Assembly: GCF_015690345.1 (NCBI RefSeq)
Contig: NZ_JADPUN010000184.1
Span: forward strand, 1-34,405
From: Plantactinospora alkalitolerans
GTDB lineage: Bacteria > Actinomycetota > Actinomycetes > Mycobacteriales > Micromonosporaceae
Reading direction: 5' to 3'
DNA: 34,405 bases
Every line of letters starts with the position of its first letter. Positions within the stretch are counted from its first letter, which is position 1. Below the pieces are notes generated by a model that was given only the letters and a program-made list of their open reading frames with translations, was not told where the DNA came from and did no database searches. This document shows, piece after piece, positions 21,337 to 21,512 of the stretch. Both the position numbers and the translations under genes were made by a program.

Positions 21337-21356
21337 GAGTGTTGCCTTTCGGAAGT

Positions 21357-21372
21357 GCCTCGTTGGCGAGGC
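21357..21372 (-). promoter_or_regulatory. Hairpin in front of the rox ribosome-binding site
   Basis: GCCTCG and CGAGGC (6-bp perfect stem, 4-nt loop) lie between the leader ORF stop (21392) and the rox Shine-Dalgarno sequence (21345-21350). The position is suited to controlling access to that site or to terminating transcription early. Function is inferred only. Confidence 0.4.
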
Positions 21373-21391
21373 GCTCCCGGCGACACCTACG

Positions 21392-21445
21392 TCAATCGCC
21401 CGACCGTGACGGGAACGGGAGCACCCATTTCGATACAGCGTTCAT
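21392..21445 (-). CDS. 17-residue leader ORF upstream of rox
   Basis: The ORF encodes [17 protein letters not shown] and ends 55 nt before the rox start. AGGAGG lies 8 nt before its ATG, the best ribosome-binding site in the area and stronger than that of rox itself. It sits inside the transcript expected from the promoter at 21483-21512. Short, strongly initiated leader ORFs followed by a hairpin and a resistance gene are the usual attenuation layout. Whether translation of this peptide controls rox is not known. It could also be a chance ORF. Confidence 0.5.
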
Positions 21446-21480
21446 GGGTCTCACCTCCTCGGGCGATGTCGCGGTCGACT

Positions 21481-21512
21481 GCAAGCTACAAGCCCCAACA
21501 TCATCCCGTCCA
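21481..21512 (-). promoter_or_regulatory. Candidate rox promoter with a RAE-like element
   Basis: On the minus strand TGGACG (21512-21507), an 18-bp spacer and TAGCTT (21488-21483) form a fair sigma-70-like promoter that would start just upstream of the leader ORF. The sequence GGGGCTTGTAGCTTGC (21496-21481) covers the spacer end and -10. Rifamycin-inactivating genes in actinomycetes are known to carry a conserved rifamycin-associated element (RAE). I cannot reproduce its consensus reliably, so the RAE identity is a guess. Confidence 0.4.

Follow-up and report, generated by a model that had tools for sequence, protein, structure and literature searches.

The window, i.e., the whole stretch of 34,405 nucleotides of Plantactinospora alkalitolerans (contig NZ_JADPUN010000184.1) analyzed here, carries a rox gene (19792..21336, minus strand, ATG at 21336) for a leader-clade Rox-like FAD monooxygenase of 514 amino acids. 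The initial annotation had described a promoter, a 17-codon ORF with a strong Shine-Dalgarno (SD) site, a hairpin, and a weaker rox SD in front of this gene; all of them are present on the minus strand, to which all leader coordinates below refer. The promoter consists of a −35 element TGGACG (21512-21507) and, after 18 bp, a −10 element TAGCTT (21488-21483) that is kept in the leader alignment; an A-rich box GAAA, similar to that of WblC/WhiB7 promoters, is located just 5′ of the −35 (21517..21520). The nine-base leader SD AGGAGGTGA (21459-21451) is followed by the leader ORF (21392..21445), which runs from an ATG at 21445 through 17 codons to a TGA. The stop region TGACGTAG (21387..21394) contains stops in two frames, and the window leader uses the TGA. 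Within the ORF lies segment B, GGTGCTCCC (21417..21425), with the leader SD/start or segment D as potential partners. Segment D, GGGAGCGCC (21370..21378), belongs to a near-invariant stretch (21370-21388) and could also pair with segment E, GGCACTTCC (21351..21359), beside the weak rox SD GAAAGG (21350-21345). Closer to the promoter, a 5′ arm GACCGCGAC (21468..21476) may pair with GTCACGGTC inside the ORF (21410-21402); two of these nine pairs are broken, in 28/151 and 74/151 rows of the Rox leader alignment, and covariation for this pairing was not convincing in the 151 rows.

The 6-bp stem-loop GCCTCG-CCAA-CGAGGC (21372-21357) noted in the initial annotation does form in the predicted fold of the window; its conservation did not hold up: by eye, the 3′ arm is CAAGGC in most alignment rows, which makes this inner stem mainly a peculiarity of the window sequence. 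The conserved hairpin is a longer one that encloses it, AGGTGTCGCCGGGAGCGCC with GGC.CTCCCGAAAGGCAACACC. The fold of the whole 186-nt leader has a z-score of −2.19, with 4 of 200 shuffles equally stable. A strict sigma-70 and terminator scan returned no promoter by that pattern and no terminator at the leader, and Rfam gave no family at gathering score across the window and none up to E = 1 over 501 bases. On the plus strand, an ORF of 1841 codons (22113-27638) is divergent from rox; its start resembles a biotin-carboxylase-type protein (by eye).

Conservation of the leader and the two rox clades

A Rox protein match was found in 144 of 200 genomes of the family to which the window genome belongs. 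The first locus set combined the best 80 of 482 protein relatives with 30 loci from same-family genomes, leaving 104 upstream regions after six duplicates were dropped. The motif TAGGTGTCGCCGGGAGCGCC or a near match was present in 102 of these 104 (absent in L075 and L113), in genera including Streptomyces, Nonomuraea, Saccharopolyspora, and Kribbella and in one Acidimicrobiia bin. An SD and a start codon (101 ATG, 1 GTG) are present in all 102 anchored loci, and the ORF always ends within or next to TGACGTAG or a variant of it: at TAG in 72, at the TGA five bases earlier in 28, and at another TGA and a TAA in one each; the six loci that lack the TGA owing to GATCGACG all use the TAG frame. 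A second set of 60 more divergent relatives gave 49 further leaders with changed loops and frames; of the others, L171 and L178 were unusable, five carried the rifamycin-associated element (RAE, see below), and L163, L166, L172, and L194 had no leader. The initial annotation had proposed to look for conservation of the ORF and the hairpin across rox orthologues; the ORF and the longer hairpin are kept, together with the strong SD, in 151 of the 162 upstream regions of rox that could be used.

Start codons in these 151 Rox leaders are ATG (147) or GTG (4). In 149 of them, the stop precedes segment D by 11–17 nt; the distance is 20 nt in L020, and the stop of L193 falls inside the hairpin. Of 159 unique rox leaders, 158 have their first stop 1–24 nt ahead of D. 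The SD, TGTGGGTGCTCCC (B), GTCGCCGGGAGCGCC (D), and CACTCCCGAAAGG (E and SD) are near-invariant, and ORF codons 2–6, the ORF end, and the loop are more variable. Mean leader identity was 0.931 (5050 pairs, 101 loci). For the same pairs, it was 0.866 at the four-fold sites of rox, 0.935 at its first and second codon positions, and 0.465 in the 150 nt 5′ of the promoter. The step from 0.465 to 0.931 places a sharp edge of the shared stretch at the promoter. Judging from these identities, the conservation of the leader exceeds chance, and the likeness is partly due to common descent. The four leaderless loci look like natural losses (by eye): either the promoter lies near the gene or just segment E and the SD remain.

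The window Rox scores 818.3 bits on NF033145 (rifampin monooxygenase), narrowly above the cutoff of 800 (the window protein alone was scored), and is 67% identical to the solved Streptomyces venezuelae Rox. There is a second type of rox paralogue (n = 19, 63–73% identity), and 18 of the 19 are in genomes that also hold the leader type. All 19 are preceded by the RAE (14–18 of 19 positions), and none by the leader. The RAE, described in the available part of PMC10719064, resembles the leader in being a cis element before rox genes and differs in being a 19-bp palindrome over tandem promoters, which leader-type genes do not have: when the RAE GGGGCTTGCGGCAAGACCC was sought 5′ of leader-type rox genes, L005-L084 scored 10–12 of 19 and later leader-type loci 10–14. 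An RAE in the window promoter was considered and rejected; GGGGCTTG before the −10 resembled half of an RAE, the other half is missing, and relatives are at chance level. Elsewhere in the window genome, RAEs precede an rph-like and a HelR-like gene (named by eye from the translation).

In a tree of 56 rows, which used 35 of the 101 leader proteins and whose bootstrap is unsettled, a 100/100 branch splits the leader type from the RAE type, and both solved Rox enzymes fall on the RAE side. For comparison of the drug pocket, R196 and R213 were included as rifampicin-contact residues of the Nocardia farcinica Rox. The remaining contact positions of this enzyme were taken from the available portion of PMC11375879. 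Among the 101 leader-clade proteins, F69 is replaced by R in 101, L176 by M in 100, and V93 by L in 99; 71 still have R201, 50 have R196, and 20 have R213, and none has lost H46, F256, P283, or G285. The 19 RAE-clade proteins keep R196 and R213 without exception and R201 in 18, and positions 43 and 69 vary there as well. As far as alignment can tell, these altered residues weaken the reason to assume a rifamycin substrate for leader-clade Rox; they do not demonstrate a different one.

Some features of the RAE loci themselves were observed in passing. In 25 of the 26 RAE loci (L001, L003, L115-L134 without L129, L196-L198, L201, and L202), the RAE starts a few bases past a conserved −10, TATAnC, and a GCAGAAT box lies about 18–19 nt after the TTGCGG inside the RAE in 22 of 26 (by eye). 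Such tandem promoters precede rox, rph-like, and HelR-like genes equally and match the scheme for mycobacterial helD in the available part of PMC10719064. A second hairpin in the RAE transcript was sought with RNAalifold on the 26 loci, and the RAE palindrome alone was supported.

The leader before other gene families

The exact 19-base Rox-version motif occurs in 2 of 396 genomes of the phylum, and because of this rarity covariance models, run with shortened calibration, were used as the probe. The model built from 49 leaders matched in 70 of 246 genomes of the class (E ≤ 0.001) and a cross-family model in 77 of 246. Downstream DNA was fetched for 109 matches, 29 given automatically beside the window's own and 80 hand-picked from the ranked lists. 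In all 109, the downstream gene is on the same strand and comes from one of six sequence groups, as judged from tblastn with representatives of each group: Rox-like (13), hydrolase A (37), hydrolase B (14), GNAT (6), patatin-like (7), and PrmC-like (32). The next start is 20–44 nt past D in 87 of the first 89 matches. Pfam supports the GNAT and patatin groups and NCBIfam TIGR03704 the PrmC-like one (415 bits, cutoff 249); the TIGR03704 protein also scores on the release-factor methyltransferase model, under its cutoff. Two hydrolases tested against Pfam matched no family, and hydrolase A is related to the solved esterase 4ao6. The window genome itself holds a second leader copy (L205, contig C150:12801-12947, minus strand) before a TIGR03704 methyltransferase gene, with ATT instead of ATG and a TAA directly 5′ of segment D. 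Counted from the gene side, the leader precedes 9 of 28 TIGR03704 genes above cutoff in 60 genomes, so many TIGR03704 genes are without it. By sequence comparison, then, the leader is a conserved RNA common to at least five kinds of genes in actinomycetes, i.e., those for Rox-like proteins, alpha/beta hydrolases, GNAT proteins, patatin-like proteins, and PrmC-like methyltransferases.

In the available part of PMC7157823, the WblC consensus is GAAAWY-3-TKGMNN-16..19-TANNNT, and the WblC/WhiB7 regulon answers translation inhibitors. The −35/−10 part (TKGM, 16–19 bp, TANNNT) was found at 137/151 Rox, 23/37 hydrolase A, 6/6 GNAT, 4/13 hydrolase B, 1/5 patatin-like, and 1/15 PrmC-like leaders, in a scan over the loci fetched before the last 20. 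Base-composition shuffles contained it at 0.7% for Rox and 0.3–4% over the groups; please note that related loci are not independent. GAAAWY was matched at 5 or 6 of its 6 positions in 38 Rox, 3 hydrolase A, 4 GNAT, and 3 hydrolase B leaders and in no patatin-like or PrmC-like leader. This A-rich box is often displaced, a base nearer, and at least three A/T are found at −8..−5 from the −35 in 118 of the 137 rox loci with the promoter. Since the −35/−10 part fits, part of the leader family is probably in the translation-inhibitor regulon of WblC/WhiB7, with the rest under other promoters.

Start codons differ between the groups: hydrolase A leaders have GTG (37/37), Rox leaders ATG (153) or GTG (6), and hydrolase B leaders ATG (5), GTG (3), ATC (5), or ATT (1). 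Among the 32 PrmC-like leaders there are 16 ATT, 13 ATC, and one each of GTT, GTC, and ATG; the nine leaders of the gene-side search, a set overlapping the 32, have eight ATT and one ATC. We read the AUU, AUC, GUU, and GUC at the AUG position (31/32) as putative near-cognate starts, and from that frame the first stop is 1–24 nt before D in 28 PrmC-like leaders, compared with 6 and 2 from the other frames. When the 255 unique leaders of all families are pooled, the figures are 246 vs 7 and 38; for ATG leaders, the +1 frame is a biased control, since ATGA halts it immediately.

Segment B (GGGTGCTCCC) is read mostly in one frame in Rox, hydrolase, and PrmC-like leaders, in a second frame in 5 of 6 GNAT leaders, and in a third in 6 of 7 patatin-like leaders; with three reading frames, the RNA seems to be selected there more than the peptide. 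The peptides differ between families, and the ORFs of L009, L012, and L056 are shifted early. Peptide-specific arrest is thus disfavored as a general mechanism. In L339, a far-diverged leader with an ATT start 5′ of a TIGR03704 gene, the peptide stretch WVLP is kept while the bases of B are changed at third positions, a hint that some branches may depend on the peptide.

Alternative pairings and a possible attenuator

By complementarity, B has two possible partners, the leader SD/start and D, and D likewise has two, B and E. The B:D pairs are standard in at least 145 of 151 Rox rows at each of nine pairs and in 94.7% of the cells of a cross-family alignment, compared with 51–68% when the segments are slid, and RNAalifold picked B:D unprompted as the cross-family structure. 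The D:E stem has a C.A mismatch in 130/151, at a position that is paired in B:D, and B, D, and E are altered together in L193. Covariation is weak and D almost invariant: shuffles scored as high in 10–37 of 500 for D:E and in 24–89 of 500 for B:D on alignment A2, both marginal, and the control failed for B:D on the cross-family alignment A3 (129–428 of 500). A single segment with two partners would explain weak covariation, which still counts as lack of proof.

The effect of a ribosome was modeled as a masked footprint, in calculations that ignore kinetics, with B:D sampled in 40 Rox leaders and 96 others and scored as the pair sum over nine, which may exceed one. For transcripts ending before E, B:D over the six groups rises from 0.00–0.51 without a ribosome to 0.48–1.02 with one on the start codon; moving the ribosome to codon 3 leaves 0.00–0.26, moving it to codon 6 or 9 leaves 0.00, and moving it to the stop leaves 0.01–0.52. 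One hydrolase leader scored apart, L309, stays at 0. On the full leader at equilibrium, with the ribosome at the start, B:D is 0.68 in PrmC-like, 0.31 in patatin-like, 0.24 and 0.18 in the two hydrolase groups, and 0.00 in GNAT and Rox leaders. As D:E wins there, B:D would need to be a folding-order trap. Access to the downstream start was expressed as opening energy because the unpaired chance of the rox SD is nearly flat (about 0.6 at nearly every ribosome position, lower at the last codons). The mean opening energy in 60 of the 151 Rox loci is 12.8 kcal/mol without a ribosome and drops to 9.5 with a ribosome one codon short of the stop and to 8.4 with one on the stop itself. In the latter position, a ribosome reduces it by more than 1 kcal/mol in 31/34 hydrolase A, 10/13 Rox, 7/12 hydrolase B, 7/13 PrmC-like, 2/5 patatin-like, and 1/6 GNAT leaders (83 of 89 loci used). 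On full leaders, opening is easiest with the ribosome at the stop in Rox and hydrolase A and at the start codon in PrmC-like leaders (mean 11.3 vs 12.9 kcal/mol).

We favor, with a probability of about 0.5, a mobile and conserved translational attenuator that would report ribosomes parked on the leader start codon. The attenuation-switch architecture proposed in the initial annotation gains support here from the conserved ORF, its stop position, and the competing complementary segments. What the sequences themselves display of such an attenuator is the ORF, the placement of its stop, the complementarity, the promoter match, and the sharing between families. A very strong SD would load ribosomes on a short ORF (mostly 16–21 codons) whose stop is usually 5–17 nt before D, and the following D:E hairpin would tie up the start region of the next gene, i.e., in the model, the GG of its SD and most of the bases from there to the start. 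With no ribosome, B would be paired to the leader SD and D to E, and the gene would stay closed; with ribosomes running through, B would be covered, D would again pair with E, and the gene would again stay closed. A ribosome parked on the start codon, arrested at initiation or at the first step as happens with some inhibitors of the ribosome, would cover the SD and free B, which could then pair with D while E is still being transcribed, opening the downstream gene. Under the same stress, the transcript itself would come from a WblC/WhiB7-type promoter in most Rox copies, all six GNAT copies, and about half of the hydrolase copies. Translation of the ORF, the order of folding, the inducer or trigger, and the direction of the response are what we infer. 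Parking at the start codon was chosen as the sensing step since it explains B and fits the start-codon arrest on other Streptomyces uORFs in the available part of PMC12421871. Several observations speak against it: in Rox and hydrolase A leaders, the next start is easier to open with a ribosome at the stop than with one on the start codon, a stop-placed ribosome also leaves some B:D and L309 has none at all, L339 keeps its peptide rather than B, and PrmC-like and patatin-like leaders are without a WblC-type promoter.

The main rival is a switch in which translation of the leader itself would decide: a ribosome ending at the conserved stop would melt the foot of D:E and let the next gene be read, and slow termination would give more product. 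The stop position is kept while peptide and frame change, the opening energy falls at the stop in Rox leaders and in most hydrolase A and hydrolase B leaders, and the controlled genes include TIGR03704, with its sub-cutoff score on the release-factor methyltransferase model. The fall is nevertheless seen in few GNAT and patatin-like and about half of the PrmC-like leaders, the unpaired chance of the rox SD falls rather than rises at the stop, and the kept complementarity of B to D finds no account; we hold such termination-coupled opening to be less probable than start-codon parking. A transcription attenuator of the wblC/lmrC kind, with D:E as the terminator, shares the layout of a uORF and competing hairpins with known actinobacterial attenuators (available parts of PMC11550727 and PMC12421871). 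D:E has no U run and no terminator-like site, takes in part of the SD, and extends to the start codon of the gene, which makes this reading improbable. The initial annotation had taken the leader as specific control of a rifamycin-inactivating enzyme, and the window gene does exceed the rifampin monooxygenase cutoff, if barely. Against a rifamycin-responsive leader specific to rox, the same leader precedes four other gene kinds, the rox clade of the solved enzymes and the HelR-like and rph-like genes have the RAE instead, the drug-pocket residues of the leader clade are partly changed, and the promoter fits the −35/−10 part of the consensus of a translation-inhibitor regulon (PMC7157823, available part); we regard it as very improbable.

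Start-codon parking would set the leader beside several known systems. Translational attenuators of the ermC/ermB type have a short translated leader, alternating segment pairing, and the start of a resistance gene in a hairpin. The present leader is alike in its short ORF (translation being predicted here) and in the predicted alternating pairing and tied-up start region, and unlike them in standing before non-homologous genes and in having one branch with an AUU/AUC start; an ermC/ermB-like peptide-specific arrest cannot be general for it because B is read in three frames. In infC, an AUU start is controlled by IF3; the AUU-class start is common to both, and it belongs to the protein gene itself in infC and to a leader ORF here. 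The whiB7/wblC attenuator is an actinobacterial uORF with competing hairpins and a WblC-regulon link, as predicted for this leader, but it stops transcription at a Rho-independent terminator (PMC11550727, available part), and this leader has no U run. For the Streptomyces ARE5 ABCF leaders tiaA/are5sc, the available text of PMC12421871 describes LSAP antibiotics that park the ribosome at the uORF start codon; the short uORF with a start-parked ribosome is shared (as proposed here), and the sequence, the transcription-level switch, and the ABCF genes are not. The Bacillus dual-promoter rifampicin alarm also acts upstream of genes linked to rifampicin resistance; it uses two convergent promoters, and the available part of PMC12802891 mentions no leader ORF; here, only the strict promoter scan bears on a convergent promoter.

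A broader view, which we put forward tentatively and consider possible at best, is that one cis-acting leader would be a stress regulon by itself, before at least five unrelated kinds of enzymes, reporting a ribosome or 30S subunit stuck on the start codon largely independently of the peptide. The AUU/AUC branch of the PrmC-like leaders may then read IF3-type discrimination or free 30S subunits, and leader-clade Rox may detoxify something other than a rifamycin, e.g., a ribosome inhibitor.

In the literature within reach, with most subscription journals and supplementary tables outside it, no paper contained any of six strings of leader peptide or DNA, and none of the papers listed described the leader by title or opening abstract. 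Through the leader, five kinds of enzymes, some of them of unassigned function, are tied to one predicted ribosome-linked control element, which could serve to find further genes that actinomycetes may deploy when translation is under stress. It is also a warning that genes named “rifampin monooxygenase” comprise two clades that differ in control and perhaps in substrate. Finally, the leaders form a natural set for comparing AUG, GUG, and AUU/AUC starts within the same RNA frame; the single PrmC-like leader with ATG, L312, has near relatives, L315 and L316, with ATT (by eye).
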